Source: Halomicronema sp. CCY15110 (GTDB lineage Bacteria; Cyanobacteriota; Cyanobacteriia; Phormidesmidales; Phormidesmidaceae). Taken from it: a DNA stretch of 42,536 nucleotides. Position numbers and translations under genes: made by a program. This document shows positions 1,020 to 39,266 of the stretch, piece by piece. The DNA is taken from assembly GCF_016888165.1 (NCBI RefSeq), contig NZ_JACSWC010000317.1:1-42536 (forward strand). The letters run 5' to 3'. Each line of letters begins with the position of its first letter. Within the stretch, counting starts at the first letter, position 1. The notes under the pieces are model-generated. The model saw only the letters and a list, made by a program, of their open reading frames with translations. It was not told where the DNA came from and made no database searches.

Positions 1020-2111
1020 CTATGCAGGCGAGTTGCGACTCCAAAGCCCCAGGCGGTGGCAGCCTTCCAGAAAGGCGACCCTCAAAAAGTTGCTGTTCGC
1101 AGTCAGATCTTTCTCGGACTGCTTGCGCCAGCTAGCCAGAGCATCTATCGGTTCAATGCCGTGTTCATCTCGGAGGATCCTGACCTGCTCTAACCAATCC
1201 TTGGCATCGTTGCTACAGCATTTTGCTTGATAGCGTTCTTCAATGCCGTAAACGTCTTGCCAAGTGTCCAACTCTTCACTGATGGTGCTGGGGCCAAAGG
1301 AGAGCTGCACGTCTGAAGCAGCGAGGTTATCGACATCTGGGTTGCTGAAGTCGATGGAGATTTCAATACTGTCACCATCAGTGGTGTATGGGTAGAAAAA
1401 CTTTCGGCGACGGGTCACTCCGGCTGGATCTTTGGGCGTAAAGGCCGTGTCTTTTGTGCCTTTATAACTGCTGTTGCAGTGATGACAAGCTGGGACAAGA
1501 TTACGGAAATTAATTGAGTTAAATGGGTAAAGACCTTTAGGAAGATAGTGATCGTAGGCTTCCCGTTTGCTGTGGTAAATCCCAAAGACATCGCTAATGC
1601 CACAAAACGGGCATTTTCCTGCTTTGTTGACCGTCATAAAATTATGGTAGTGGTCATCGATTTCACCGATTTTTTCCCGGAGTGCCGCAAGGTTCAAGAG
1701 CTTTTGAGAGTAAAGCCCCTTAAAGAATGAGGCGAGCTTGTCATGCAGAGTGGGATAAGTGGTCTTGATGTCGGCATAGCGTACCAGGGGAAGAGCTGAA
1801 TCTTTGGCACAGACTCTTTCGATGTTGTTATTGGCCTGATACCACTGTTGGAACTTGTCAATTTCTTCAGGGGTCAGCGGAGCAAACAAGTTATAGATGC
1901 GTTCGACATGGCCGTTAAAGAAATCTGCGCCTGCTGCATCGGAGTAGTGAAAGGCTTCTATGACTTCTTTGAGTTCGGCATTGCCGTCGAATAAGTCAAA
2001 GCCAAAAGGGTTGCCCTCAGGAGCTTTGCACCAAACTTCAAAAAAGATGTAGTCGATGAAGGACTGCATCTTTTCCATCGAATGGGGCACGTAGGTATAG
2101 GCAAACAGCAC
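1020..2111 (-). CDS. HNH endonuclease, PtuB-like partner of the AAA ATPase
   Basis: A 363-residue protein with a C-terminal-half HNH nuclease. A CPFC zinc knuckle (167-170) comes first, then YDHYLPK (H188 region), FRNLVPACHHCNSSYKGTKD (from 202) with CHHC at 209-212: the beta-beta-alpha metal fold with two Cys pairs. The first 150 residues are helical and of unknown role. The start is GTG at 2111, sharing one base with the ATPase stop (TAGTG), so translation is coupled. ATPase plus HNH pairs of this kind form Septu (PtuA/PtuB) defense systems, where the ATPase controls the nuclease. Here the pair is the tail of a type I restriction operon. The exact Septu subtype is inference. Confidence 0.85.
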   Translation of the reverse strand: MLFAYTYVPHSMEKMQSFIDYIFFEVWCKAPEGNPFGFDLFDGNAELKEVIEAFHYSDAAGADFFNGHVERIYNLFAPLTPEEIDKFQQWYQANNNIERVCAKDSALPLVRYADIKTTYPTLHDKLASFFKGLYSQKLLNLAALREKIGEIDDHYHNFMTVNKAGKCPFCGISDVFGIYHSKREAYDHYLPKGLYPFNSINFRNLVPACHHCNSSYKGTKDTAFTPKDPAGVTRRRKFFYPYTTDGDSIEISIDFSNPDVDNLAASDVQLSFGPSTISEELDTWQDVYGIEERYQAKCCSNDAKDWLEQVRILRDEHGIEPIDALASWRKQSEKDLTANSNFLRVAFLEGCHRLGLWSRNSPA

Positions 2112-3949
2112 TAGTCCTGAGCCTCCATGCGATCGAGAATGGTTTTGATCAGCAGCATTTTCTCCACAGAGTCGCCGAGTTGCTGGTTGATTTCAGTGAT
2201 CAGTTGTTCTTTGTCCTCGTTGGGTCTCGTCGACCTTTCTCTAAATTGCCCAAGTTCATCCTGAGCACGACGACCGATGGTTTCACGTTTGCTGAATGTA
2301 TTCATCGTGATCTTGTTGATGGAAGCGCCAAAGGTGTTGTAATCAGGGTGGTTAACTGACACGATGCCATTTGTCTTGTCAAACACCAGAACCTTTTCCG
2401 GCTTACTGTCGGAGATCACGAAGGGCGTGTGGGTGGTGATGAGCATTTCTTGCCGATCGGCGTCGCCGAAGCTGTCGTAGAGGCGAGTGACAAAGTTGGC
2501 CCGCCAGTCGGGGTTGAAGTGGGTTTCGGGTTCATCCAGCAGAAACAGGCTGTGGGTGTTTTTGAACAGCAGGCAAAGCCCCAGGGTGTGCAGCAACTGG
2601 TGTTCACCATCGGAGAACGATTTTAGCAACACCGGCTCAGCCACATCGGTTTTGGTCAGCCAGACGTTCTTAAAGCGGATGATGCGCTCATCGGCGGCAA
2701 GGGTGGGAACGCTCTCGCTGACATAGAGGCTATCGGATTGGTACAGGTCTGCCTTTAGCTGGTCGCTGACGGAGTAGAGATTGAGCGTTAGCAATACTTG
2801 AAATGCTTGGAATAAACTTATGGGGGAGCCATTGATTGCAAAGTCAAAGTTTTCTCGGAATGCCTGACGGGTGGCGTCATTAACGTAATAGTCAAGGTAG
2901 AGAGTGTCGGTAGCAGCATCGACAAACCAGCAGGTAGCGCAGCGTTTGAGGCGCGGAATGATTTTGAGTTTGTCAGCTCGCTCTTTAAGAGATTCATTGT
3001 CGTTAGAGTCATCGCCGTCAGAGTCATCGCTGTCAAAGTCATCGCCGTCGAGTAGTTGTACTACGTTGACCCGGTAGCGATAGCCACCAACTCCATCGTC
3101 AACCGAATCAAGAGCTGGATGATTTCGGACAATATCTTCTACTGACTGCTGCTGGCTTGCGCTCTGGCTGCCAAAGGCCCATATCTGATCGATGTCTAAC
3201 TCAAAGCTGAGCTGGATGACGATGCGAAACTCTCGCAAGGCTTCAATGCCGATGTCTTCCTGAAAGGGGCTCAAAGCCGCTGCTTCCTGGAGGAGAAGGT
3301 TGCAGAGTAAAATCGCCTGACTAAAGCCACTGTCAAGATAGACGAGACGCGATTCAGGCCTGTCGGAATAGGACAAATCCTGGGTCAGCGCTCGCCAATA
3401 TTCGTCGAACTGGATGAAGCGCATTTTGAAAAATGGCAGGCTGAGAATTTCGTTCTCTCCGGAGGAGTAGCCAAGAACATACTCTGGCAATAGTGTGTAC
3501 CGCAGCTTTCGACCCGCTTTCAATTCCTCCCAAGCTTCCTGACGTGTATTCCACAAAGTCCAGGCTGGGGCTTGCTCGGGCTGTTTAATGATTCTGATGC
3601 GGACTTGATCGTCTTCGCGATCCAGGTCTGGGGGCGGTGGCATGAGGTATTCAATCTCAAAGCCGTCTGGACTGGCTTGTTCGCTCCGAAAGCCGTTGGG
3701 ATTGGCCTGCGCTTCATAGATGAAACTGTCCGGCTTGTCTTCGAGGTAGATGCACTCTAGATGGTAAAAAATGGCCGCGAGTGCCTCCAGCAGATTGGAT
3801 TTGCCGCTGCCGTTGCGGCCAGCCAGGATAAAGGGTGCGAAGCCTCGCTCGTCTTGCAAGGCCCACTCAGTGCGAAAGTAATGTTCAAACCCGGCTTGCA
3901 GGCTGCGAAAGCCCTGATGAGCAGTAATTTTTAGGCGTAGTAGCTTCAT
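2111..3949 (-). CDS. Restriction-system-associated AAA (SMC/OLD-like) ATPase, PtuA-like
   Basis: About 612 residues. Walker A GRNGSGKSN is near residue 45, an ABC-like signature SDGEHQ near 450, Walker B LFLLDEPETHFNPD near 472, and the H-loop THTPFVISD near 510: the ABC/SMC-type ATPase head seen in OLD, RecF and PtuA proteins. The middle (about 60-430) is the lever region and holds a run of Asp (303-325) encoded by a 15-bp tandem repeat. It matches the group usually annotated as restriction-system-associated AAA ATPase. ATG at 3949 (MKLLRLK) fits the family; an in-frame TTG lies 9 bp upstream and neither has a clear ribosome site. The gene follows hsdS by about 45 bp and touches the HNH gene, so it probably acts with both. 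Confidence 0.88.
   Translation of the reverse strand: MKLLRLKITAHQGFRSLQAGFEHYFRTEWALQDERGFAPFILAGRNGSGKSNLLEALAAIFYHLECIYLEDKPDSFIYEAQANPNGFRSEQASPDGFEIEYLMPPPPDLDREDDQVRIRIIKQPEQAPAWTLWNTRQEAWEELKAGRKLRYTLLPEYVLGYSSGENEILSLPFFKMRFIQFDEYWRALTQDLSYSDRPESRLVYLDSGFSQAILLCNLLLQEAAALSPFQEDIGIEALREFRIVIQLSFELDIDQIWAFGSQSASQQQSVEDIVRNHPALDSVDDGVGGYRYRVNVVQLLDGDDFDSDDSDGDDSNDNESLKERADKLKIIPRLKRCATCWFVDAATDTLYLDYYVNDATRQAFRENFDFAINGSPISLFQAFQVLLTLNLYSVSDQLKADLYQSDSLYVSESVPTLAADERIIRFKNVWLTKTDVAEPVLLKSFSDGEHQLLHTLGLCLLFKNTHSLFLLDEPETHFNPDWRANFVTRLYDSFGDADRQEMLITTHTPFVISDSKPEKVLVFDKTNGIVSVNHPDYNTFGASINKITMNTFSKRETIGRRAQDELGQFRERSTRPNEDKEQLITEINQQLGDSVEKMLLIKTILDRMEAQD
3006..3050. repeat. 15-bp tandem repeat, three copies, in the ATPase gene
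   Basis: Three successive 15-bp units (3006-3020, 3021-3035, 3036-3050; core GTCATCGC) encode the repeated peptide DSDGD in the acidic loop of the AAA ATPase. Copy number can change by slippage without frameshift, so the loop length may vary between strains. Confidence 0.75.
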
Positions 3950-3995
3950 GGATGCCAATCGGGGAAGGCCATACCGGGAGCAACAGCATCGGTCA

Positions 3996-5603
3996 TCACT
4001 TATCTGCTGCCTTGATTAGGACACAGTTGTTGGCATCGTCGTAGCTTTGTGCCAGGCGACCACTTTTCAGGGATTCAAATATCCATGCTTTGAGGTGGTC
4101 ATATTCCGCCGCACCTAATTCCACCGTACGCAATTCCTCTGTGTCCTCCTTTGGCTCCTCTGCGTTGTTCTCTAGCTCCTCTGCCAGTTTCCACAAGCGC
4201 TGCTGGGCAGCTTCCATAAAGTCCTGGGTAGAAAAAGGCGCGTTATTCAGGTGGTCAATCCAAGCCGCTAGCCACTGGTTGATTAGATCCTGGCGGCCCT
4301 TGGCGGAATGGAGGGTGGTCAGCTCTGGGGGAGCGGGCAGAGTGAAGGTCTCGGTTGCGGGCGGTGGTTCGCTGGTGTCGGGAGGTTCTGTTGCGGTGGT
4401 GTCGGTATCTTCAGAAGGTAAGGGAACCCGTGATAGATCCAGATCTCCTTTGAAGGCTTTTTGGCTGAGTGCGCCGTAGAGGTTTTCGAGATCGGTAAGA
4501 CTTTGCTGGTAAGAAGTTTTAATGCTTTCAACTTTTTCGACTATAGTGGCAAATTCGTCTTGTAGCTCAATGGGTGGAATGGGAAAAGGTATCCGATTCA
4601 TCGCACCAACATTGAAGTGCTTTTGAATGCCGCCAACCTCCTTTGATGCGACAAGAGCTATGCCCCTTTCCGAATTTAAGAGACTAGCTAAGTAGTGTGG
4701 ATTGAGAACTCCTATTTTGGGCCTTACAAGGATAAGATCAATACAATTCGCTCCATCCAGTTCACGTGGAACAACAGCCGCAGTTCCTGTTTTACCAGTT
4801 CTGACAATAACTACATCGCCAGCACGCAAAATCGATTTCGCTAGTGGCCCTTCATTTGCCTGTTCAGAGAAGAAAACCAAGTTGTCAAGTTCGATTCGAT
4901 TTGGCTTGATATTGAGCGATCTGAGTGCAATCACACCTTCTTCTACATAGTAAGAGGCTGGCTTGACTACAACGCCCACTGTGAGCCGAGTACTGTACGC
5001 TTTTCCAGTAAGCATTATCCATCCCTTCTCATTGCGAACTGGATCGCCGAACATCTCTAGGAAGACGCTTTTGAGTAGGTCGTCGAGTTGTTGCAGGTGT
5101 TGTTTGCGCTCGGCAATTAGCCCTTCCACCTTGCCAAGCACGTAAGCAATCCGCTTTTGGTCATCCAGCAATGGGAGAGGAATTTCTATTTTCGCTAAGG
5201 ATTTAGAATTTAGCGTTTTCCCCATTACAGCCTGGTTAGAGCCGATAAGCTTGGCAACTTGTAGAGCAAAGAAAAGATAGTCTCTATTAAGTTGGTCTTT
5301 ATCCTTAATTAATAGCGCGGCTATAGCTTCATTCGTATACAGATCGCAGCCTGCGAAGGCCATCTTGCCTATCGTTAACTTGAAGCTAAATAGCAATGTT
5401 CCTTTTGGAATTTTTCTGCACCGCTTTTGCTCAACTGCATAATCAGTGATTTCTTCTTTGGTTTCACAAACCACTTTTGAATTGAGATCGGAAATGGATA
5501 CCCATTTATTTCCTTTTCCCCAATATTTTGCTTCCTTACGCGCCGGAGTACGACCAATAACAATATTACAGAGCTCAGAAAGAGATTTTGCTGGATAACT
5601 CAT
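3996..5603 (-). CDS. hsdS: Type I restriction-modification specificity subunit HsdS
   Basis: A 535-residue protein with two target-recognition domains. The first spans about 1-155 (SLSELCNIVIGRTPARKEAKYWG start, typical of HsdS) and the second about 195-365. Each is followed by a conserved helix (KRIAYVLGKVEGLIAERKQHLQQLDDLLKSV and DEFATIVEKVESIKTSYQQSLTDLENLYGALSQ). HsdS picks the DNA sequence that HsdM methylates and HsdR cuts. An extra C-terminal tail of about 140 residues is present: a Pro/Thr/Glu-rich linker (about 395-430), then a helical domain ending KAWIFESLKSGRL. The start overlaps the hsdM stop in an ATGA, so the genes are coupled. The target sequence cannot be read from the protein. 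Confidence 0.93.
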   Translation of the reverse strand: MSYPAKSLSELCNIVIGRTPARKEAKYWGKGNKWVSISDLNSKVVCETKEEITDYAVEQKRCRKIPKGTLLFSFKLTIGKMAFAGCDLYTNEAIAALLIKDKDQLNRDYLFFALQVAKLIGSNQAVMGKTLNSKSLAKIEIPLPLLDDQKRIAYVLGKVEGLIAERKQHLQQLDDLLKSVFLEMFGDPVRNEKGWIMLTGKAYSTRLTVGVVVKPASYYVEEGVIALRSLNIKPNRIELDNLVFFSEQANEGPLAKSILRAGDVVIVRTGKTGTAAVVPRELDGANCIDLILVRPKIGVLNPHYLASLLNSERGIALVASKEVGGIQKHFNVGAMNRIPFPIPPIELQDEFATIVEKVESIKTSYQQSLTDLENLYGALSQKAFKGDLDLSRVPLPSEDTDTTATEPPDTSEPPPATETFTLPAPPELTTLHSAKGRQDLINQWLAAWIDHLNNAPFSTQDFMEAAQQRLWKLAEELENNAEEPKEDTEELRTVELGAAEYDHLKAWIFESLKSGRLAQSYDDANNCVLIKAADK

Positions 5604-7315
5604 CCAATCATCTCCTTCAACTCAAGCAGTTCCCGCAGCATCCCACTTTGTACCTTGGCTAGATCCTCGTCGCCGATTTCACCCACCTCAGCCTGAATCA
5701 GCCTTTCCAAGATCACCTCTGGGGCTTCATAGATCTCCTCTTTATACACTTCTTCCTTGTAGCGGCTTAAACTCAGGTCATAGCCCTCAGCTTCAATATC
5801 GGCACGGGGCACGAAAAAGCATTTGCTTTCATCTGTAATTGTTCGGTCAGTATCCGTCTCTGGGTTGCGGGCTTGAAACTTGGCGACAATATCTTGCAAA
5901 TCGCCATAGCCCTCTTGCTTGGTGCGTTTGTCATCCAGCGAGTAGCCGTCGCTCGCCATCTCGTAAAACCACACCTGCTCCGTGGCGGGCTCGGTGACCT
6001 TCTCTTTCGGTCCCCACACCTTGGTAAACAGCAAGATGGCGGTGCTGACCCCGGCATAGGGCTTAAACACACCGCTGGGCAGGGTGATCACGGCTTTGAG
6101 CTCGCAGCGCTCCACCAGCAGCTTCCGCAGATCCTTGAACGCCTTGCCCGAGCCAAACAGCACCCCCTGGGGCACAATCACACAGGCCTTGCCGCCTTTT
6201 TTCAGCAGGCGGTAAATATTCTCGACAAACAGCAGCTCTGTCTTGGTGGTCGAGAGGGTCAGGTTTTCGTTGATGTCGCCCTTGTCGATGCTGCCGGTAA
6301 ACGGCGGGTTGGCCATGACGATGTCATATTCCCCCGCTTCGTCATAGCTTTTGCTCAGGGTGTCTTGATAGTCGATGTGGGGCTCGTCGATGCCGTGCAT
6401 CATCAGGTTCATCAGGCCCAGGCGCACCATCGTGCCGTCGATGTCATAGCCATAGAGGCAGTTTTGCAGCATGGTTTGCGCGTCTTCGGTGAGGGCTGCC
6501 GCTACTGAGGTGCGGGTAAAGCCGTCTTCATCGGGGGCCAGATCCGTGGTCCCGGCTCGGATGGCGAGCTGGGTGACAATGTACTGATACGCCCCCAACA
6601 AAAATCCGCCAGAGCCACAGGCCGGGTCGGCAATTTTGTGGCCCAGCTGCGGCTGCACCAGTTCGGCCATCAGCTTGATGATGTGGCGCGGGGTGCGAAA
6701 CTGACCGTTCTTGCCCGCGCTGGCAATCTCCGACAGCAGCATTTCATAGACATCCCCCTGGATATCTTGAAACGCCTGACCGTGTTCCTGGGAGTCTCGC
6801 TCCATGATGGCGAAGATCTGGTCGATGGTCTTCACCGCTTCCACCAGCAGCGTCGGTTTCGGGATGATGAACACCGCATTCTTCATATGATGGGAGAAGT
6901 TAGACTCCTCTCCATTCAGATCCTTCAGAAAGGGAAACACTTTGAGCTGAACATGCTGCAGCATACGATCAGCCGGACTGTAGAACTTAAATCGGTTCCA
7001 GCGAAGTTCGTCTTTTTCGATCGCGTGTTTCTCTGCTTCCTCAAGCTTCCGACGTTTTTCGTCCTCAGAATCGTTTTCATTCAGTTTTGCTCGGTGCTCT
7101 GGCGGAATCCAGGTGCCTGCAAATTTTGAGGTGTAAGATTCGCCAGTCCATTCAGCATCGGCCTGCTTTTTGAGATCGAGCTCATCTACCCGCTTCATGA
7201 ACAGCAGGTAGGTGATCTGCTCGATGGCCGTGAGCGGGTTAGAAATGCCCCCCGACCAGAACTTATCCCAAAGCTGGTCGATTTGGCTTTTGAGTTCAGG
7301 GTTGTTTTGCAGCAT
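5600..7315 (-). CDS. hsdM: Type I N6-adenine DNA methyltransferase HsdM
   Basis: A 571-residue protein. An N-terminal helical HsdM domain (about 8-160) is followed by the methyltransferase fold: SAM-binding motif DPACGSGGF at 230-238 and catalytic NPPF at 336-339. It transfers a methyl group from S-adenosylmethionine to adenine N6 in the site chosen by HsdS, and protects host DNA. The C-terminus is helical and Glu-rich, as expected for contact with HsdS. It lies 32 bp after hsdR and overlaps hsdS by 4 bp, so all three come from one transcript starting upstream of hsdR. No motif is damaged. Confidence 0.95.
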   Translation of the reverse strand: MLQNNPELKSQIDQLWDKFWSGGISNPLTAIEQITYLLFMKRVDELDLKKQADAEWTGESYTSKFAGTWIPPEHRAKLNENDSEDEKRRKLEEAEKHAIEKDELRWNRFKFYSPADRMLQHVQLKVFPFLKDLNGEESNFSHHMKNAVFIIPKPTLLVEAVKTIDQIFAIMERDSQEHGQAFQDIQGDVYEMLLSEIASAGKNGQFRTPRHIIKLMAELVQPQLGHKIADPACGSGGFLLGAYQYIVTQLAIRAGTTDLAPDEDGFTRTSVAAALTEDAQTMLQNCLYGYDIDGTMVRLGLMNLMMHGIDEPHIDYQDTLSKSYDEAGEYDIVMANPPFTGSIDKGDINENLTLSTTKTELLFVENIYRLLKKGGKACVIVPQGVLFGSGKAFKDLRKLLVERCELKAVITLPSGVFKPYAGVSTAILLFTKVWGPKEKVTEPATEQVWFYEMASDGYSLDDKRTKQEGYGDLQDIVAKFQARNPETDTDRTITDESKCFFVPRADIEAEGYDLSLSRYKEEVYKEEIYEAPEVILERLIQAEVGEIGDEDLAKVQSGMLRELLELKEMIG

Positions 7316-7347
7316 GGCTTGAATTCTGAAAGGTTAGGGCCTTTCCG

Positions 7348-10155
7348 TCAAGCGGCCAGCCGCTCGGTGAGCTGTAAGATTTCGGTAATTTCCGCCGGGC
7401 TAAAGACGCCCCGAATGCCCTGGGGATGAATCACCGTAAACGGCGCGCTGATCAGATCCTTCTTCTCTACCGTCTCGCGATCGATGATGAAGGTCTTCAG
7501 CAAGTTCAGAAACTCCAGTTGACGGCTGCTCAGGTTGCTGTGCTGCTGGATGAACTGATCAAACGCCTCGCTAACCGAGTCCGGAAAGCTCTGTAGCGTT
7601 TCCAGGCCGAGGATGTGGCGGATGAACTGGATGAATCGCGCCTTGCGATTTTGATACACCTGGCGCAGCAGGTCTTCAGTGATGTGGGGATGCTCCGCGT
7701 GGAGGAGAGTGGCCAGGGCGTCGGCTTCCTCGGGGGCGATCGCCTCACCGTTTTTGAGCTTCATCAGCACCGGGTTACTTGCCGTCAGCTCAGCAATCAC
7801 GGCTTCCACCATTTCCCGATAGCGGCTAATGCTGACCGATTCGTGCTGGGGGCCAAACTCCACCCGTTCCTTGTTGTGTAGCTCATCCACCAGGTTGAGA
7901 TAGACCGGCCCAGCGCTGGTACTCGACTCGCGGAACTTCATCAGTGGCCCCAAGCGATCGTTGAGCTGATCGAGCGCCCGTTCCCGTTCTTGCTCACTGC
8001 CCTCGGCCCAGTAGCGGTTGGTTTGGGCGGCGCGAATCAGGTCTTCCTCTGCTTTCACAAAATTGACCGACAGCGGCAGCTCCCCAATGCGCTGCACAAT
8101 GCTCTCCCGCAAGTTTTCGGCCTCTGCCGGGTCATCCTGGAGTCTGGCTAACCCGTAAGCCACCAGGTCACGCTCAAAGCGCATTGCCTTAAAGTCCACC
8201 TCAGAGACCGTGCGAAACAGCGGCTTGATGGTAGTCCGCAGGAACTCCAGCTTGGGATGGTTTAGGGTGACCCAAAAATTTTCCTCGTCGAGGCGGGCCA
8301 GAGCCGCAGCGGCATCCCTGATGACGACAGAGTTCGGGGGCAGCGCCGCAATCTGCTGACGGAGCTTGGCCACTTCCTGTTCGGCGATCGCGGCCAGGGT
8401 GCGATCGTTCGCAGCTTCAATCTTGTCGAGTCGCAGCCCCACCAACTGCACCGGCAAAGGCAGCTGGGGCTTCAGCTCCTTGCCTTTCGGCTGTAGCTTG
8501 AAATACTCGAAATTATCCCAGCAATCGAGAATCAAGAACACCTCTTTGGCCGGACACCAGGGCTTCGGTTTGCGGGCCTCCAGCAACCGCGTACCGCGCC
8601 CAATCATCTGCCAAAACTTGGTGAAAGAGTAGACCGGCTTAGCAAACACCAGATTGACGATTTCCCGCACGTCAATGCCGGTATCCAGCATGTCCACACT
8701 GATGGCCACGCGAGGCATGTCGTTGTTGGTGAACTGGTCTAGCAGCCCGCCTTTGCCGTAAACTCTAGGATCTTCCGAGACCAGTACCTTGGCCAACTCG
8801 CCTTTGTACTGCGGATACAGCTCGTCAAAAATTTCCTCCATGCGCCGGGCATGGGCTTTGGAAGAGCAGAAAAATATCGTCTTACCGGGCAGCACCCCGT
8901 TGGGATCTTTGATGCACTCCTCCATGAATTCCTTGACGATCAGGGTGTTGGTGCCCTTGTTGATCACCTGCTTTTCAAGCTGCGAGCCTTCAAAGTTAAT
9001 TTCCTCGACTTCCTGGCCTTCTAGCAGTAGCTTCTTCTGGTCTTCCAGCGAGATCGTGCGCTTGCTGATGCCCTCCATCTGAAACTTGGTCTGAATCTTC
9101 ATGACCTGAAAGTTGCACAGGTAAGGAGGAACGTTATTGACCGCTTCTTCAAAGGTGTAGGCAAAGGTGGGCAGACCATCCTCGCAGTGAAAGAGCTGAA
9201 AGGTGTTGTGGTCAATGATGTCGGTGGGGGTGGCCGTCAGCCCCAGGGTGATGGTTTTGAAATAGTTCAGGACTTCCTGATAGGTGTTGTAAATCGAGCG
9301 ATGGCTTTCATCCACCACAATCAAGTCGAAAAAATGGGGCGATAGCGGCTGTAACCCATCCCGAATGATGTTGAGCATCGTGGGATAGGTCGAGACGTAG
9401 ATGCGGCGGTCTTTGGCAATCAGTTTCTCGCCCACCTTGGGCCAGCGCGGCTCGTGGGGCAAATGTTCCTTAAAGGCAGCCAGCGCCTGTTCCCGCAGCG
9501 CAATGCGATCGACCAAAAACAACACTTTTTCAGCATGGCCAGCACGCATCAGGGCATCGACCAGGGCAATACAGGTGCGCGTTTTGCCAGTGCCGGTCGC
9601 CATCACCAGCAGAAAGTTGCGTTGCTGCCGGTCAATGCCTTCCAAAACGGCACGGATAGCGCGGATTTGATAGTCGCGACCGGCAATGTCGGTATTGATC
9701 AGCTCGTGGGTCAGATGTCTTCGGTTACGGCGGATATATTGGAACCGCTCAAGGTCATCGCGCGTGGGAAAACCGACCACCTTTCGAGGCGGATAGTTGT
9801 CCAAGTCCCAAAAGTAGATATCGTGACCGTTGGTGTAAAAACAGAACGGCAGTTCCCCGCCCTGTTGCTGCTGGATGTTGTAGCAATATTGCTTGGCCTG
9901 CTCACGACCAATCGCGGCGTCTTTGCTCGATTTCTTAGCTTCGATAACGGCCAGGGGTTTGCCATCTTTGCCGAGCAATACATAATCGCTGAATTGATGT
10001 CCCTGGTAGGACGCTCCCGTTTCGGCAGTCTTTCCAGACGGAGATGTCAGGATGTCAAATTCTTGAACAACCTGCATCGGATCTTTGACGTTCCAACCCG
10101 ATTGGGCCAGAAGTTCATCAATCAACTCTATGCGGGTCTGCTTTTCACTGTTCAT
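7348..10155 (-). CDS. hsdR: Type I restriction endonuclease HsdR (EcoEI-like)
   Basis: A 935-residue protein of full family length. The N-terminal nuclease domain shows D57 and E72-A-K74 in a PD-(D/E)XK arrangement. Two RecA-like motor domains follow: Walker A ATGTGKT at 186-192, DESH at 282-285, a helicase motif around SVDMLDTGIDVREIVNLVF, and the arginine motif QMIGRGTRL. The C-terminal region resembles the EcoEI R-subunit domain. HsdR moves DNA with ATP and cuts far from the unmethylated site, in complex with HsdM and HsdS. The ATG at 10155 is the first gene of the operon; the 440 bp upstream should hold its promoter. All catalytic residues seem intact, so this is an active system. Confidence 0.95.
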   Translation of the reverse strand: MNSEKQTRIELIDELLAQSGWNVKDPMQVVQEFDILTSPSGKTAETGASYQGHQFSDYVLLGKDGKPLAVIEAKKSSKDAAIGREQAKQYCYNIQQQQGGELPFCFYTNGHDIYFWDLDNYPPRKVVGFPTRDDLERFQYIRRNRRHLTHELINTDIAGRDYQIRAIRAVLEGIDRQQRNFLLVMATGTGKTRTCIALVDALMRAGHAEKVLFLVDRIALREQALAAFKEHLPHEPRWPKVGEKLIAKDRRIYVSTYPTMLNIIRDGLQPLSPHFFDLIVVDESHRSIYNTYQEVLNYFKTITLGLTATPTDIIDHNTFQLFHCEDGLPTFAYTFEEAVNNVPPYLCNFQVMKIQTKFQMEGISKRTISLEDQKKLLLEGQEVEEINFEGSQLEKQVINKGTNTLIVKEFMEECIKDPNGVLPGKTIFFCSSKAHARRMEEIFDELYPQYKGELAKVLVSEDPRVYGKGGLLDQFTNNDMPRVAISVDMLDTGIDVREIVNLVFAKPVYSFTKFWQMIGRGTRLLEARKPKPWCPAKEVFLILDCWDNFEYFKLQPKGKELKPQLPLPVQLVGLRLDKIEAANDRTLAAIAEQEVAKLRQQIAALPPNSVVIRDAAAALARLDEENFWVTLNHPKLEFLRTTIKPLFRTVSEVDFKAMRFERDLVAYGLARLQDDPAEAENLRESIVQRIGELPLSVNFVKAEEDLIRAAQTNRYWAEGSEQERERALDQLNDRLGPLMKFRESSTSAGPVYLNLVDELHNKERVEFGPQHESVSISRYREMVEAVIAELTASNPVLMKLKNGEAIAPEEADALATLLHAEHPHITEDLLRQVYQNRKARFIQFIRHILGLETLQSFPDSVSEAFDQFIQQHSNLSSRQLEFLNLLKTFIIDRETVEKKDLISAPFTVIHPQGIRGVFSPAEITEILQLTERLAA

Positions 10156-20345: not shown

Positions 20346-21188
20346 ATGTTTAAGAAGGCGACGAAACACCAAGCCCGCTTGAGACTAGCTCTATGCGGCC
20401 CCAGTGGTAGCGGCAAGACATACAGCGCCCTCAATATTGCTCACCACTTAGGCAGCAGCATTGCTCTGGTTGACACCGAACACGGCAGCGCCAGCAAGTA
20501 CGCTGATCGCTTTGATTTCGACGTGTGCGAGTTGACCGACTTCCACCCAAACCAATACATCGAAGCCATCCGCGAAGCAGGCAAGGCCGAGTATGAAGTG
20601 ATTGTGATCGACAGCCTCAGTCATGCATGGTTTTGGGAACTGAACGAAACCAGCAACGCCAAGAATAGCTTTACCGCATGGGGCAAAGTTCGCCCCCTAG
20701 AACGCGCCTTGATCGACGCCATGTTGAGCAGTCCGGCCCATGTCATAGTCACCATGCGGACAAAGACCGAATGGGTTTTAGTGGATAGCCCCCGCAACGG
20801 CAAGCCGATGCCCGAAAGAGTTGGCACCGCACCCATTCAGGCATCCGGCATTGAGTATGAATTTGACATCGCTGGAGAGCTTGACCTCAACCACATGCTC
20901 ACGATTTCCAAGAGCCGATGTCCCGCTCTGACCCGCACAACCCACGCTAACCCCGGTGAGAATTTAGCGGACACCATGCTGATGTGGTTGAGCGATGGAG
21001 CCCCGATGGAAGAAAGCGTAGAGAGTCGCGCTAATCGAGTCAAAGAAGCCCGTGAAGCGGTTGGTCTTGATCAAGAGTCTGTACGCAATTTAATCAAGGC
21101 TGAATTTCATGGGCGCACCAGTCCTCGACAGCTTTCCTCCCAAGACTGCGATTGCCTCATTGCACTGATTCAGCAAGCCACAGCTTAA
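20346..21188 (+). CDS. Sak4/AAA_24-like RecA-fold ATPase
   Basis: 280 residues. Walker A GPSGSGKT at 18-25, then IALVDTEHGSASKYADRF and Walker B-like EVIVIDSLSHAW near 81-92, with a downstream VIVTMRTKTEW strand: a compact RecA-core ATPase of the type phages and integrative elements use with ssDNA annealing or recombination (Sak4, often annotated AAA_24 or phage nucleotide-binding protein). The C-terminus (220-280) is helical. GPSGSGKTYSALNIA and DTEHGS are typical of this group. No SSB or annealing protein is adjacent. A strong TTAGGAGTT ribosome site precedes the ATG. A role in element recombination or replication repair is inferred. Confidence 0.8.
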   Translation: MFKKATKHQARLRLALCGPSGSGKTYSALNIAHHLGSSIALVDTEHGSASKYADRFDFDVCELTDFHPNQYIEAIREAGKAEYEVIVIDSLSHAWFWELNETSNAKNSFTAWGKVRPLERALIDAMLSSPAHVIVTMRTKTEWVLVDSPRNGKPMPERVGTAPIQASGIEYEFDIAGELDLNHMLTISKSRCPALTRTTHANPGENLADTMLMWLSDGAPMEESVESRANRVKEAREAVGLDQESVRNLIKAEFHGRTSPRQLSSQDCDCLIALIQQATA

Positions 21189-22068: not shown

Positions 22069-22248
22069 ATGGATAAATTAAGCCGCAGTAAAAAGCCCCT
22101 CCGTCAGAACGTGACGATCCGGTTGCAGCCCGGCATCTGGGCTGCAACCAAGGTTTCGGCAGCCCAGGAGGGACGCCCCGCTAGTGACCTGGTCGAAGAA
22201 GCTCTAGCCGCGTATTTACAAAATCTGGCAGTCATTCCAGCAGCCTAA
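22069..22248 (+). CDS. Small RHH regulator
   Basis: 59 residues: KKPLRQNVTIRLQPGIWAATKVSAAQEGRPASDLVEEALAAYLQNL is a ribbon-helix-helix fold (strand RQNVTIRL, two helices). The ATG at 22069 follows AAAGGAAA. It reads away from the XRE repressor across shared operators and directly toward the Rep-like gene, so it may be the antirepressor-like partner controlling replication genes. Confidence 0.7.
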   Translation: MDKLSRSKKPLRQNVTIRLQPGIWAATKVSAAQEGRPASDLVEEALAAYLQNLAVIPAA

Positions 22249-22253
22249 AAAAA

Positions 22254-22281
22254 TCCCGTTCTGGCGGCAACCAGAGCGGGA
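22254..22281. terminator. Hairpin after the RHH gene
   Basis: TCCCGTTCTGG (22254-22264) and CCAGAGCGGGA (22271-22281) form an 11-bp stem with one G-T pair and a 6-nt loop, 5 nt after the RHH stop. The run of seven A before the stem is a T-run on the other strand, so by base content it would terminate minus-strand transcription better; the plus side lacks a clear T-run. Confidence 0.5.
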
Positions 22282-22411
22282 CGTTTCGTGCTTTACACAC
22301 TTTCACCTTCCATCATGAAACACCTCAGAACCGACAGAGGCAGTAGGCGGATAGCAATACTGCTCAGGACGACGGCAATGCGATACCTGGCGCAGCAGCG
22401 AAGGAGGAGCC

Positions 22412-23488
22412 ATGCCGAGAATTAACGCGCCCTTCTATGCGCTGACTTGGAAGCAGGCCCAGCGCGACTACCAGGACGGCATTCTTACCACCAGAGGGCT
22501 GATATTTACCTACTTCCGAACCAAGCTCAAACCCGGCTCAGGCTTGGCCGTAGACGTGGATAACCTGTGTCGGGAGTTGGGCGTACATCAGGCGACCTAC
22601 TATCGCGCTATCGGAGCGCTACAGGCAGCAGGCAGGCTTGATCTCAACAAAGGCAAGATGGTCGTTGCCATCCCTGAAGTCCTTGCTCCACATGACGTTT
22701 CGCAGATGTGCGAATGGGAGTCGCAAGGTTGCGAAAATGACTCGCAGATGTGCGAATGGGAGTCGCAAAGTTGCGAAAATGACTCGCAGATGTGCGAATG
22801 GGAGTCGCAAAGTTGCGAAAATGAGGAGGGCTGTGGAAAATCCTCAGAAGCCTTGCAGGTTAACGCTTTTGACGCCTGGAATTGGGTCAAAGCCGATGTA
22901 CCAAACAGATCAACAGATCTTTTAAAAGAACAAACAGATCTAACAGAGGATTGTTTTGTTCTCGGAATTGACAGGGAAGGTATTGGTACATCCAGGTTTG
23001 GCGTTGAAGCGGGGTCTGTTGTTTCTCCAGATCAAGCGCTGGAGCAGTTTTCAGGGTTTATCCAAGACTCAGGAGTCAGACCGAACAAAACCATTCAAGA
23101 CACGTTAGCGGCGCTGATAGAACACAAAGGAGTTGCGGCGGCGGCGCGGCTGGTGGAAAACGCCCTCAGTGCCCTGGAAGAACAACGCGATCGCGGCAAA
23201 ATTCGTAACCCCGGTGGCTTCCTGAGATCCGCACTACAGCGAGGTTTCACCAGTAATGAGGCGAAGCGCAAGGCCAAGGGCAGGCCCCCGGCGAAGCCCC
23301 CAGAGCCACCCGATTCCCTGAAGTTGGCCCAGGTCATTGACGCCTCTCTGTGGAATGGCGATCGCACCTACGCCCGAGAGCGGCTAAATGCTGAGTGGCA
23401 TGCCGGATGGCATGACCTGATCGAGGAACTGGTCACGACTTTGCGCCCCGATTGGGGCTTTCAAGTCATCGACGGGGAGGTGGTGTAA
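22412..23488 (+). CDS. Replication-initiator-like protein with in-gene iterons
   Basis: 358 residues. N-terminal winged helix (about 15-85: TRGLIFTYFRTKL ... VDNLCRELGVHQATYYRAIGALQAAGRL). Residues about 97-138 are a threefold 14-residue repeat (SQMCEWESQSCEND type) encoded by six DNA dyads. A polar linker follows. The C-terminal domain (about 215-300) includes EHKGVAAAARLVENAL ... GKIRNPGGFLRSALQ, a helical pattern seen in DnaD-like or plasmid Rep proteins. Winged helix, repeats in the linker, AT-rich stretch, then a helical domain: the same order as phage lambda O, whose origin lies inside its gene. The ATG is next to GGAGGAGCC. Family call by eye; function inferred. Confidence 0.65.
   Translation: MPRINAPFYALTWKQAQRDYQDGILTTRGLIFTYFRTKLKPGSGLAVDVDNLCRELGVHQATYYRAIGALQAAGRLDLNKGKMVVAIPEVLAPHDVSQMCEWESQGCENDSQMCEWESQSCENDSQMCEWESQSCENEEGCGKSSEALQVNAFDAWNWVKADVPNRSTDLLKEQTDLTEDCFVLGIDREGIGTSRFGVEAGSVVSPDQALEQFSGFIQDSGVRPNKTIQDTLAALIEHKGVAAAARLVENALSALEEQRDRGKIRNPGGFLRSALQRGFTSNEAKRKAKGRPPAKPPEPPDSLKLAQVIDASLWNGDRTYARERLNAEWHAGWHDLIEELVTTLRPDWGFQVIDGEVV
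22700..22825. repeat. Origin-like iterons: six 14-bp dyads every 21 bp
   Basis: TCGCA-N4-TGCGA starts at 22700, 22721, 22742, 22763, 22784 and 22805, exactly 21 bp apart (two DNA turns). Inner bases alternate GATG and AAGT-type (AGGT in the second copy), with 7-bp spacers alternating ATGGGAG and AAATGAC; the two together give three 42-bp units. All lie inside the Rep-like gene in frame. Six symmetric sites on one DNA face are what an initiator would need. Confidence 0.92.
22903..22949. other. AT-rich stretch with AACAGA repeats, possible unwinding region
   Basis: AACAGATC occurs at 22904, 22912 and 22933, with AACAGAGG at 22942, in an AT-rich patch about 80 bp after the iterons. The 22912 and 22933 copies are 21 bp apart. 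In lambda-type origins an AT-rich unwinding region follows the iterons. It is coding at the same time. Confidence 0.5.
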
Positions 23489-23859
23489 TGCCCATGCAGC
23501 GTCATCTTTACCCCCAGAACTGGAACGCCATCGCCTACCAGGTCAAACAAGAGGCCGAGTGGAAGTGTGAGAAGTGTGGCCGTGAGTGCCGCCGTTCTGG
23601 GGAGCCTGCTAGTGAGTTCACCGAGCGGATTGCCACCGGTCGGTTAAGTGAATGCCCGGTCGTCGCCGAGTTTCTGGAGAAACCCACCCGGTTTGTCCTC
23701 ACCGTCGCCCACCTCGACCACCGACCCGAGAACTGCGAACGGTCGAACCTAAAAGCTTTGTGTGCCCCGTGCCACTGTCGCTATGACCTGAGCCAGATGG
23801 CTCGCAAGAAAGCCCTGAAGCTGGAGCGCGAAGGGCAGTTGAACCTATTTGGAGCCTGA
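23488..23859 (+). CDS. HNH endonuclease
   Basis: 123 residues. First Cys pair CEKC near 31-34 (KCEKCGREC), then LTVAHLDHRPENCERSNLKALCAPCHCRYD: the HNH core with H-D-H, central N, C-P-C pair and final H, in the zinc-stabilised arrangement. The ATG shares one base with the Rep-like gene's stop (TAATG), with GGGGAGG upstream, so it is coupled to it. Phage and element HNH proteins of this size serve as nicking or homing nucleases; here it could serve replication or transfer. No intein or intron is seen. Confidence 0.85.
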   Translation: MPMQRHLYPQNWNAIAYQVKQEAEWKCEKCGRECRRSGEPASEFTERIATGRLSECPVVAEFLEKPTRFVLTVAHLDHRPENCERSNLKALCAPCHCRYDLSQMARKKALKLEREGQLNLFGA

Positions 23860-26801: not shown

Positions 26802-27866
26802 TTACTGGCCGCCCTTCACAACTCGCTCCCAGACCTCCTGATATTCTCGCTCCGACATGGCCCCGTGGTAGGTCTGAGTGTGGACGCTGACCGAATGCCC
26901 CATCCACTTGGCCGCGATCGCCACTGGCACCCCCACCCGTGCCAACCGAATCGCATAGGCATGGCGCAACGCATAGGGAATATGGGGCACATCCCAGCGC
27001 TTAAACGCCTTGCTGGTGCGCTCTCCCAAGCGTTTGTTGGGCGTCCCCTCCCTGGCCGTGGGCGCATGCACATCCCAGAGCCGAAACGCCTCGACCCATT
27101 CCGCCTTGCAGGGATACACGACCCTGCGGCCCGTCTTGCCCCGCAGCACCACCAGCACATCGTCACCGCCCAATCGTGAGCAATCCAGGTGATACACCTC
27201 ATGGGGCCGGATGCCGTAGGTTGCGCTAACCCCATACACCCACTGCACCATCGGGCTGGCAATTTGCTCCCAGGTTTGCTCGATTAGCTCGTCAGTGGGC
27301 AACTCATTCGGGTCAAACGCCTCGGGCCTGTAGTTGCCCGCCAACCCCGTCCAATCAATTTCCAAACCAGCGTAGCGCCCCAACTCCTTCAGACACCTCA
27401 CACAGGCTTTCCGTGCCCTAGAATTCGGTGTCGTGCCCTGTCTACAGGCTTCCGTTAGCAATGCGGCTGTAATGGGCTGCTGACAGTCAATCAACCGCGT
27501 GTAGGGTTCGTAGTCGTTGCGGATAGTCGTATCCTTCACCGTTTCCCCCTTCCACGCCAGAAACGCCTCGACCCACTCATGAGCCGTTTTAGGTTTTCTG
27601 GACTCACCACCACTGGACTTCCCCCAATCCGCCCAGTCAAATCGCTCAAACAGCAAATCGCTTTCAAGCTTAGCTGCCTTGGCCTGAGCAATTTTCAGCC
27701 CCGCCGCTGTCACTTTGCAGCCCGTAGCAATCCACTGCTGCCGCACTTTGCCAGTAGTTTTATCAGGTAGCCGAGCCCGTAGACTATAACTACCACCCCG
27801 CCGCCAGATCGAAACCTTCGTGTAAGCGGCTGACTCTCGTTCTAGTAGCTGGTCACCTGGACTCAA
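26802..27866 (-). CDS. int: Tyrosine recombinase (integrase) of the element
   Basis: 354 residues. An N-terminal arm-binding part (about 14-75) and a core-binding domain (about 95-165) precede the catalytic domain: R220 (YGIRPHE), K244 (LRGKTGRR), YALRHAYA with R301, the GH pair at 323-324 (KWMGHSVSVHT) and nucleophile Y333 (QTYHGAM). The usual His of the HxxR box is Tyr here (Y298). The start is TTG at 27866, the only in-frame choice before the catalytic set-up. Located 72 bp from the 3' end of tRNA-Ser, it probably integrates the element into that tRNA gene. Confidence 0.9.
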   Translation of the reverse strand: MSPGDQLLERESAAYTKVSIWRRGGSYSLRARLPDKTTGKVRQQWIATGCKVTAAGLKIAQAKAAKLESDLLFERFDWADWGKSSGGESRKPKTAHEWVEAFLAWKGETVKDTTIRNDYEPYTRLIDCQQPITAALLTEACRQGTTPNSRARKACVRCLKELGRYAGLEIDWTGLAGNYRPEAFDPNELPTDELIEQTWEQIASPMVQWVYGVSATYGIRPHEVYHLDCSRLGGDDVLVVLRGKTGRRVVYPCKAEWVEAFRLWDVHAPTAREGTPNKRLGERTSKAFKRWDVPHIPYALRHAYAIRLARVGVPVAIAAKWMGHSVSVHTQTYHGAMSEREYQEVWERVVKGGQ

Positions 27867-27877: not shown

Positions 27878-27937
27878 AAATCTAACGACTATCACAATAT
27901 TCGCAGCAAATAGTGTAAATAGCGAACGCTAGAACAA

Positions 27938-28021
27938 CGGAGAGGGTGGGATTCGAACCCACGGTCCTTTTGGGACATCCGATTTCAAGTCGGACGCATT
28001 CGACCACTCTGCCACCTCTCC
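27938..28021 (-). tRNA. tRNA-Ser (anticodon UGA)
   Basis: Read on the minus strand: acceptor GGAGAGG (28015-28021) pairs with CCTCTCC (27939-27945). The T-arm GGTTCGAATCC is present, a variable arm is present (GATGTCCCAAAAGGACCG region), and the anticodon loop CTTGAAA gives anticodon UGA. The long variable arm and discriminator G are serine features. The 3' end faces the integrase and is the probable attachment site. No second copy of its 3' end was seen in the window. Confidence 0.95.
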
Positions 28022-28116
28022 AGGCTTTGCTATTGTAAAACATCCTTTTCCACAATGAGATGCTTGCTGCGATCAATTTACGTCGCCACTGCTCCCCAGA
28101 AGTACTGACACAGCGA

Positions 28117-38669: not shown

Positions 38670-39266
38670 GTGATTATTACTGAATTGCTAGCGGTATTGT
38701 CGGTTTCAGCCGCAGCGGGTTTGCGCATTGCCTTACCGCTGTTACTGATTGGCCTGCTGTCCGACGAGCTGTGGTCGCACATGCCGGGGTTATCGCAACT
38801 TCCCCCGACGGTTGTGGTCGGGGCGCTGGTGAGTTGGGCCCTGGCAGAACTGATCTTTTCGACCCAGCCGTTGATGCAGCGGTTGGTTCGTAGTGTGGGG
38901 TTGTTACTCAGTCCTATCGTGGGCGCGATCGCGGGTATTGCCGTGGCACGGACTTTCCAGATTGCCGATGCCCTGGTGATCGTTTTAGGCCTGCTTGGTG
39001 GGCTATTAGCCCTGGTCATTCACCTGGTGCAAGTAGGCTGGATCTATCGCCTCAAGCGTCCCAAAGTGTGGGTCATTTTTGCCGAAGATTTTCTCTGCGT
39101 CTGCTTAGTCTTGTTTGCGTTTGATGCGCCCGAACAAGGGGGCCTCATCGCTCTATTGCTGCTTTGGCTCGCCCTGAGAACCTCACAAACCTGGCGACAG
39201 TGGTACCTGAAGCAACCCAACCCAGGCGATCGCCCGCCCAAACGACTGAGACGCGAACCTGATTAA
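38670..39266 (+). CDS. DUF4126-family membrane protein
   Basis: 198 residues, five or so membrane helices; the N-terminus ITELLAVLSVSAAAGLRIALPLLLIGLLSDELW is typical of DUF4126. Start is GTG at 38670. Basic C-terminal tail. Function unknown. Stands alone between the rhomboid gene and a small membrane gene. Confidence 0.75.
   Translation: MIITELLAVLSVSAAAGLRIALPLLLIGLLSDELWSHMPGLSQLPPTVVVGALVSWALAELIFSTQPLMQRLVRSVGLLLSPIVGAIAGIAVARTFQIADALVIVLGLLGGLLALVIHLVQVGWIYRLKRPKVWVIFAEDFLCVCLVLFAFDAPEQGGLIALLLLWLALRTSQTWRQWYLKQPNPGDRPPKRLRREPD

Follow-up and report, generated by a model that had tools for sequence, protein, structure and literature searches.

A probable replication origin inside the coding sequence of its own initiator in cyanobacterial plasmids and integrated elements

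Results

The locus and its predicted initiator

The window, by which we mean the whole stretch of DNA analysed (42,536 bases), is a complete contig and one part of a 6.15-Mb genome. The predicted initiator gene (Table 1) belongs to a cluster that also encodes ArdC, a Sak4-like ATPase and an HNH endonuclease, the last of which, and not dnaB, is the next gene. The cluster is located between a type I restriction operon and an integrase gene with a tRNA-Ser gene, and housekeeping genes adjoin. The 3' end of the tRNA-Ser is not repeated anywhere in the window or the genome, and the far end of the element was not found. To judge from the integrase, the tRNA-Ser and the housekeeping neighbours, this copy is apparently chromosomal and part of an integrated element, and replication from it there is unproven.

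Table 1. Positions of the features discussed in the text (coordinates of the window).
Feature	Position	Strand	Basis
Type I restriction-modification genes (HsdR-, HsdM-, HsdS-like) and AAA_21 ATPase gene	1020-10155	-	
AAA_24 / Sak4-like gene, same cluster as initiator	20346..21188	+	Pfam, PHROG
Predicted initiator gene, 358 aa, with winged helix (N-terminal), helical domain (C-terminal) and, between them, a linker of low confidence that the putative origin encodes	22412..23488	+	
Winged-helix coding stretch	22412..22699	+	Weak HTH matches, AF2, winged-helix regulator matches
Dyad 1, TCGCAGATGTGCGA	22700..22713		Exact pattern match
Dyad 2, TCGCAAGGTTGCGA	22721..22734		Exact pattern match
Dyad 3, TCGCAGATGTGCGA	22742..22755		Exact pattern match
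Dyad 4, TCGCAAAGTTGCGA	22763..22776		Exact pattern match
Dyad 5, TCGCAGATGTGCGA	22784..22797		Exact pattern match
Dyad 6, TCGCAAAGTTGCGA	22805..22818		Exact pattern match
DnaA box TTTTCCACA (cyanobacterial consensus), 13 bases past array	22832..22840	-	Exact match
Proposed unwinding element: AT-rich tract with 64% AT, against 46% for the gene	22897..22990		Base composition
Inverted pair bounding AT-rich tract, TGTACCAA and TTGGTACA	22897-22904 and 22983-22990		
C-terminal helical domain, residues 203-358	23018..23485	+	AF2 pLDDT mostly 76-90, dip at 281-300
HNH endonuclease gene, adjoining initiator	23491..23859	+	PHROG 1571, E 1.3e-25
Tyrosine integrase, probably of element	26802..27866	-	Pfam Phage_integrase 5.9e-7; phrog_1
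tRNA-Ser(tga), possible attachment site beside integrase	27937..28022	-	

The Pfam scan of the protein (P0001) gave sub-threshold helix-turn-helix matches only, with no match to a helicase domain, and no PHROG family matched it. Its AF2 model has a mean pLDDT of 58.5, with moderate confidence for the winged helix (residues 21-80, pLDDT 55-72) and very low confidence for residues 80-194, which are encoded by the array and the AT-rich tract. We infer a recognition helix of about HQATYYRAI. Foldseek searches with this model returned nothing at E <= 0.001, and VIA-align gave winged-helix regulators as middling matches, with Z reaching 6.9, and AAA proteins for the C-terminal part, all below Z 8. 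The structure matches listed included no known plasmid or phage initiator, which excludes nothing. We propose that the C-terminal domain recruits the host replication machinery. As a separate observation, the C-terminal part of one of six members (L048:3308-4444) matches the NCBIfam slr1353 family below cut-off (E 2.1e-8), and a second place in the genome of the window (G000:C45:2513-2704) resembles this domain (E 3e-6); on sequence evidence, a chromosomal protein of cyanobacteria, itself without known function, may have the domain too.

A preliminary description of this DNA had pointed to six exact dyads, TCGCA-N4-TGCGA, and an exact pattern search recovered all six. Each is 14 bp long, and with 7-bp spacers and a period of 21 they span 22700-22818. 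No further exact copy is present in the 42,536-base window, and dyad pairs with a 7-bp spacer are absent elsewhere in the 6.15-Mb genome, in which a reversed control pattern had 0 matches. The array is in frame at about residues 97-136, past the predicted winged helix, as had been claimed. TRF reported 3.0 copies of a 42-bp unit with 98% match, so the array consists of three copies of a two-dyad unit.

These dyads exceed what the peptide demands, as synonymous shuffles of the gene (n = 2000) contained a mean of 1.1 dyads and a maximum of 4. The arms are made of the codons TCG (Ser) and TGC (Cys), which are unused in the rest of the gene; the same linker peptide re-drawn from rest-of-gene codons therefore cannot yield a dyad, and the 0 of 5000 that we obtained in this way holds by construction. 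A 96-aa ORF also runs antisense through the array (22600-22890, minus strand), and the antisense match to the query (L014) is probably due to the symmetry of the dyads.

Three parts of the locus go beyond the array described earlier, namely the DnaA box, the AT-rich tract and the inverted pair that bounds it (Table 1). The available portion of one source (PMC4674748) gives TTTTCCACA as the DnaA box of most cyanobacteria; the window holds two exact copies, the other one at 28046. The criterion for a DnaA-dependent iteron origin is met, in that the DnaA box adjoins the iterons. The most AT-rich 60-nt stretches of the gene start at 22898-22913.

A cyanobacterial gene family with regular dyad arrays

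Protein searches, which are blind to the DNA, led to a diverse cyanobacterial family. Used alone, the window protein found 0 loci in viral_contigs, 0 in phages and three weak matches among plasmids; searches with the family profile or with other members recovered more, and alignment A3 found no relative in viral_contigs. Compared with 95 relatives, the window protein matched in eight genomes, its same-genus homologue being 49% identical, and the profile of an alignment of six members (A1) matched in 54 of the 388 genomes of the class (E <= 1e-6). Named members come from Nodosilinea, Oscillatoria CS-180, Scytolyngbya and two MAGs, and others lie on IMG/VR contigs; PHROG scans of ten neighbouring proteins on two of these contigs (eight on L049, two on L097) detected no structural phage genes, so 'phage' is not established for them. 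Plasmid members were recognized by protein similarity in Nostoc, Planktothrix, Trichormus, Fischerella, Picosynechococcus (including pAQ5), Microcystis and others. The genes sit on both cyanobacterial plasmids and chromosomes; some of the plasmids are complete, and six of the plasmid records matched were read whole. In one genome (G056) the contig assembly breaks within the repeat array. Current annotations of family genes are 'helix-turn-helix', 'MarR family' or 'hypothetical'.

Before counting, we dropped the window copies (L001-L004, L014) and a chance low-complexity match (L012). The sample comprised 96 genes, 90 ORFs hit by the profile and six plasmid genes added by hand on protein similarity, and was reduced by shared 5-mers to 76 non-redundant ORFs (of the hand-added genes, L092, L094 and L095 remain), 63 of which have at least 200 aa. 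The controls were 178 ORFs from the same loci, of which seven were removed, namely L047, which duplicates L017, and six that were whole or partial family genes, leaving 171; one array-negative family gene, L096, is still among them.

Clusters of like dyads were sought anywhere in the ORF and compared with synonymous-codon shuffles of the same gene, a regular array being defined by two or more spacings of 18-22. On lambda O, the positive control, the scanner retrieved exactly the four annotated iterons (39034, 39054, 39078 and 39101), with no equally good result in 100 shuffles and a score of 13, against 6 in gene P. Among the 76 non-redundant ORFs, 45 beat all 100 synonymous shuffles. Regular 18-22-bp dyad arrays were present in 42 of the 63 members, versus 3 of the 171 controls, one of which is a repeat-protein gene (L017), and a mean of 5.0 of 63 after shuffling. 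A strict set of 39 genes combines a regular array with a score above all 100 shuffles; L007, L053 and L073 have regular arrays but do not beat all shuffles, and L081 and L095 beat all shuffles but fail the regular-spacing rule.

Strict arrays begin at ORF residue 88-165 in 38 of 39 cases (at residue 51 in the remaining one), typically just past the winged helix. Spacings in the 45 genes (n = 204) are 20 (86 times), 21 (56), 19 (21), 18 (11) and others (30), so that 174 of 204 fall at 18-21, and the inner gap, of 2 to 8 bases, is even in all 45. The comparison of homologues proposed in the preliminary description thus finds arrays that are kept as the protein, the arm sequence and the reading phase diverge. 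Homologues without dyads had been named there as a refutation; this outcome is met in part, since 21 of the 63 members have no regular dyad array.

The strict set leaves out 24 genes, ten of which were inspected by eye, without statistics; nine of these ten have sites iterated at roughly 20 bp, which in several are direct or mixed, not inverted. L028, likewise outside the set, is without the N-terminal part, and scans of L011, L055, L058, L078 and L087 show nothing above the null. The pAQ5-type genes L076, L091, L093 and L096 are negative by the dyad scan; the three pAQ5-type genes among the six complete plasmids have weak dyads (scores 6-8), and a gene of this type carries CGACAA-like repeats at 393, 413, 433, 453 and 470, about 20 bp apart.

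Two side observations concern unusual members. A subfamily with helices like RTVQRAARRL (L023, L024, L043, L062 and L066) has linkers with roughly 20-bp direct repeats around GATCC..AATG.CGACAAA and no clean dyads by eye; this could be the same origin in asymmetric form. Scytonema NIES-4073 plasmid4 (L094; AP018267.1, 28 kb) has two family genes with different arrays (7440-8722 and 22214-23101), the first of them divided between two ORFs, one for the winged helix (7440-7736) and the next (7733-8722) with TTCTG dyads every 19-20 bp.

Conservation of the array and AT-rich tract as DNA

A repeat in the protein was also part of the preliminary description. The 14-residue peptide repeat exists in the window gene as claimed, where it is a by-product of the 21-bp period, but it is not general: 20 of the 39 strict arrays have no spacing divisible by three, 11 have only some, and in-phase arrays are limited to eight genes, that of the window included. 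With no multiple of three in 20 of 39 arrays, the peptide is not what is kept.

Synonymous sites point in the same direction. We compared seven pairs without shared genes, leaving out three others (two with the same pAQ5 relatives and one nearly identical). Synonymous changes affect 24 of 438 sites (5.5%) in the array and AT tract versus 319 of 1399 (22.8%) elsewhere (p 6e-19); by region, they amount to 7/162 in the array, 17/276 in the tract 15-165 nt past it, 132/636 in the winged helix and 187/763 in the rest. Amino-acid change is not lower in the array and AT tract (120/567, vs 333/1778 elsewhere), with 58/228 in the array, 62/339 in the tract, 112/771 in the winged helix and 221/1007 in the rest. 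Between the window gene and its same-genus homologue (L006), synonymous changes are 5/22 in the array and 36/53 in the winged helix. The pattern is not uniform across pairs: between L071 and L072 the winged helix is nearly unchanged (1/118) and the AT tract shows no reduction (4/45), and array (2/12) and winged helix (23/126) give similar values in the pAQ5 pair.

These data bear on the possibility that the dyads are mere by-products, either of a repeat selected in the protein, an SQxCE heptad linker, or of a neutral minisatellite. The window gene alone would allow it, with its period of 21, its repeated peptide, a linker predicted at the very low confidence typical of disordered stretches, and 42-bp units so alike (98%) that the tandem duplication looks recent. 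Across the family, most arrays are lost on synonymous shuffling, the arms go with the winged helix (see below), and residues change in a stretch whose synonymous codons are conserved. Because the reading phase varies and synonymous codons are conserved, we reject this explanation as quite improbable.

Co-variation of the site with the winged helix

Arm sequences differ between family members. In a Mantel comparison of 38 of the 39 strict array genes, based on a symmetrised site matrix, similarity of the winged helix was correlated with similarity of the site (r 0.56, 0 of 2000 permutations as good), and remained so after removal of the C-terminal domain (partial r 0.55, 0/2000). Common descent of helix and site within one gene contributes to this value. 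The C-terminal domain, in the same gene, provides a contrast, as its correlation with the site is weak (r 0.12, 32/2000) and vanishes given the winged helix (partial r 0.02, 647/2000), which speaks for recognition of the site by the winged helix.

Recognition helices pair with arms as HQ[AS]TYYRAI with TCGCA, SKATFYRAI with TCTCA, SKSSYYNAI with TCCAC and SKSTYYDAL with TCCGA, and both KTAFYSAI and KTAYFKAK occur with TCCGC. All three genes with TVSKAL (L027, L034, L095) are rich in GTTTC, and 13 of 17 with the R-form (SRAL/GRAL-type) are rich in GTTGY, the exceptions being L071 (GGTGT), L042 (GATC) and the short ORFs L055 and L077; the motif sets for this K/R comparison were picked after seeing the arrays.

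Dyads within a transcribed gene could also act as RNA hairpins in the mRNA, controlling translation or the transcript. In the window, every dyad could fold into a stem of 5 bp and a loop of 4 bases, and G-U pairs are in slight excess among non-Watson-Crick arm pairs (27/116, or 0.23 vs a rough 0.17). A role as DNA agrees better with the inner gaps of 2-8 bases, with a period of two turns and with the link between site and winged helix; the repeats of some relatives are direct, not inverted, and the conserved stretch includes the AT-rich tract. On the strength of the direct repeats, the period and the winged-helix tie we reject hairpins, to which we give scarcely any credence.

DnaA boxes, AT-rich tracts and genomic context

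Across the family, TTTTCCACA is found at 26 sites in 19 of 63 genes, compared with a mean of 2.1 and a maximum of 6 in shuffles and 3 in 187 kb of controls. Sixteen of the 26 fall within a conserved C-terminal VEN peptide, as (T)GTGGAAAA(C) on the VEN codons; the family has 26 VEN peptides, on whose codons shuffles yield 1.15 DnaA boxes. It is possible that these boxes form a second DnaA site inside the C-terminal domain. The other ten boxes, in 7 of 63 genes, are also above shuffles (mean 1.04, max 5). The most AT-rich 60-nt stretch starts 15-105 nt past the array in 27 of the 39 strict genes, against a shuffled mean of 9.8 (max 17) and a uniform expectation of 3.7. An inverted pair GTACCR...YGGTAC, represented in the window by TGTACCAA and TTGGTACA, is present in 19 of 63 genes versus 1.05 when shuffled, and in 13 of these 19 it spans the most AT-rich stretch (within 20 nt).

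A DnaB-like ORF follows the family gene in 9 of 99 loci, overlapping or abutting it in seven and 359-411 nt off in two; many of the 99 loci have only 1.5 kb of flank, and L071 hardly differs from L072. In plasmid B of T. variabilis and in Microcystis p1FD4, the family gene and dnaB overlap or adjoin directly. Both plasmids, like pAQ5, have their own parA away from the family gene. A role of the array as a partition site, with the protein as an adaptor for plasmid segregation, was conceivable, since many carriers are plasmids and centromeres also have arrays of about 20 bp; the separate parA genes and the dnaB neighbours, which point to replication, led us to reject it, and the chance that we leave to it is very slim.

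An array serving as operator or incompatibility site would involve the same protein-DNA contact: the protein would control its own expression or copy number by roadblock or handcuffing, and replication would start elsewhere. Binding by the protein's own winged helix, for which there is co-variation and no binding data, is the best-supported part of the whole proposal, and iteron arrays often double as origin and operator/incompatibility site. GC skew likewise leaves room for an operator, as the cumulative minimum is located beside the gene in one of six complete plasmids (L095) and not in the other five, so that skew, as an independent origin test, is not supportive. Against it stand the position of the most AT-rich stretch close after the array, with synonymous codons conserved there, the DnaA boxes and dnaB neighbours, and the lack of any exact dyad upstream of the window gene. 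We therefore consider a purely regulatory array unlikely.

Discussion

Taken together, our results favour the array being the iteron part of a replication origin located inside the coding sequence of its own initiator, to which we assign a probability of roughly 85% in the absence of any bench test. That an origin is built into the initiator gene had been suggested from the window alone; the arrays of the homologues and the lambda O control now support it, with binding and origin activity unproven. We know of no experiment on genes of this family.

Binding, dimerisation, unwinding, helicase recruitment and replication itself are inferences. A dimer would occupy each palindromic site through the N-terminal winged helix, and with sites mostly 18-21 bp apart, or about two helical turns, the bound dimers would stack on one face of the DNA. 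Host DnaA, bound at TTTTCCACA, would probably take part when this complex melts the AT-rich tract, whose start is about 80 bp further downstream. Bringing in the replicative helicase might then fall to the C-terminal domain; in several relatives, the helicase from the adjacent dnaB gene may do this instead.

The family would represent a large, apparently unnamed cyanobacterial group of self-contained replicons. We lean, by little more than even odds, towards a stronger formulation, a 'replicon in one gene' in which an ORF of ~1 kb unites a winged helix, its cognate iterons, a DnaA box, an unwinding element and a helicase-recruiting domain, with mutually blind specificities. Linkage of sensor and target would have let the family radiate into many of these, among them TCGCA, TCTCA, GTTGY, GTTTC, TCCGC, TCCAC, TCCGA and GATC. 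If this is true, specificity is set by few residues of the recognition helix, giving new plasmid compatibility groups and a readable code of protein-DNA recognition. Knowledge of cyanobacterial plasmid replication proteins is limited, according to the accessible part of PMC10899382. Initiator and origin would be assigned together for many elements, plasmid B of Trichormus variabilis ATCC 29413 among them; pAQ5 of PCC 7002, whose array is weaker, is another example. Compact replicons for vectors would become available whose compatibility is predictable from sequence. More generally, the family is a clear case where selection on DNA overrides the protein within a coding region, and where a receptor and its binding site evolve in one gene.

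How does this family relate to known initiators? CyRepA1/2 and CyRepX1/2 are likewise cyanobacterial plasmid initiators, presented as helicase-related (DEXDc/HELICc) in what is available of PMC10899382. They are of helicase type, whereas the window protein instead has an in-gene array. No description of in-gene iterons in cyanobacterial initiators was found in the literature searched, most subscription journals being outside its scope.

A closer arrangement is that of RepA_N initiators. For pSK41, the section of PMC5703833 at hand describes an N-terminal winged helix that binds Rep boxes central in the rep gene, an ori that encodes the central part of the protein, and a C-terminal domain that interacts with DnaG. 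The origin boxes are placed, as here, between the N- and C-terminal domains (residue 88-165 in 38 of 39 strict arrays). In contrast, RepA_N is described for Firmicutes, and the cyanobacterial family has many site sequences and more than one C-terminal type. RepA_N (PF06970) gave no match at E <= 0.1 in P0001-P0006 (for P0005, among the best 25 of 30 families) and none at E <= 0.05 in 14 members of A2 and A3 (for A3, among the best 25 of 30 families); a genome scan for PF06970 also had no match, and its controls were silent too.

The third comparison is with phage lambda, whose O gene had been proposed as a parallel. Phage_rep_O had no Pfam match in the family members scanned. PHROG matches in subfamily A3 involve replication initiation, O-like and DnaD-like families, all weakly: the O-like ones concern three of six members (best E 0.00093), and phrog_270 four of six (best E 1.8e-5). 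Unlike lambda O, part of the cyanobacterial family has a DnaA box and a GTACC inverted pair, and its carriers are plasmids and integrated elements. The lambda sites are spaced by 20, 24 and 23, whereas those of the family are even-centred and mostly 18-21 bp apart, and replication gene P comes next in lambda, where several relatives here have a dnaB neighbour. At the level of layout the parallel holds, with a winged helix, dyads in the gene, an AT-rich tract after them and a C-terminal domain. In lambda, as far as the available text of PMC7466680 goes, iterated dyads lie in the middle of O (39034-39118) with an AT-rich stretch directly after; in both systems, the initiator's own gene holds the iterated dyad sites, and an AT-rich tract follows.
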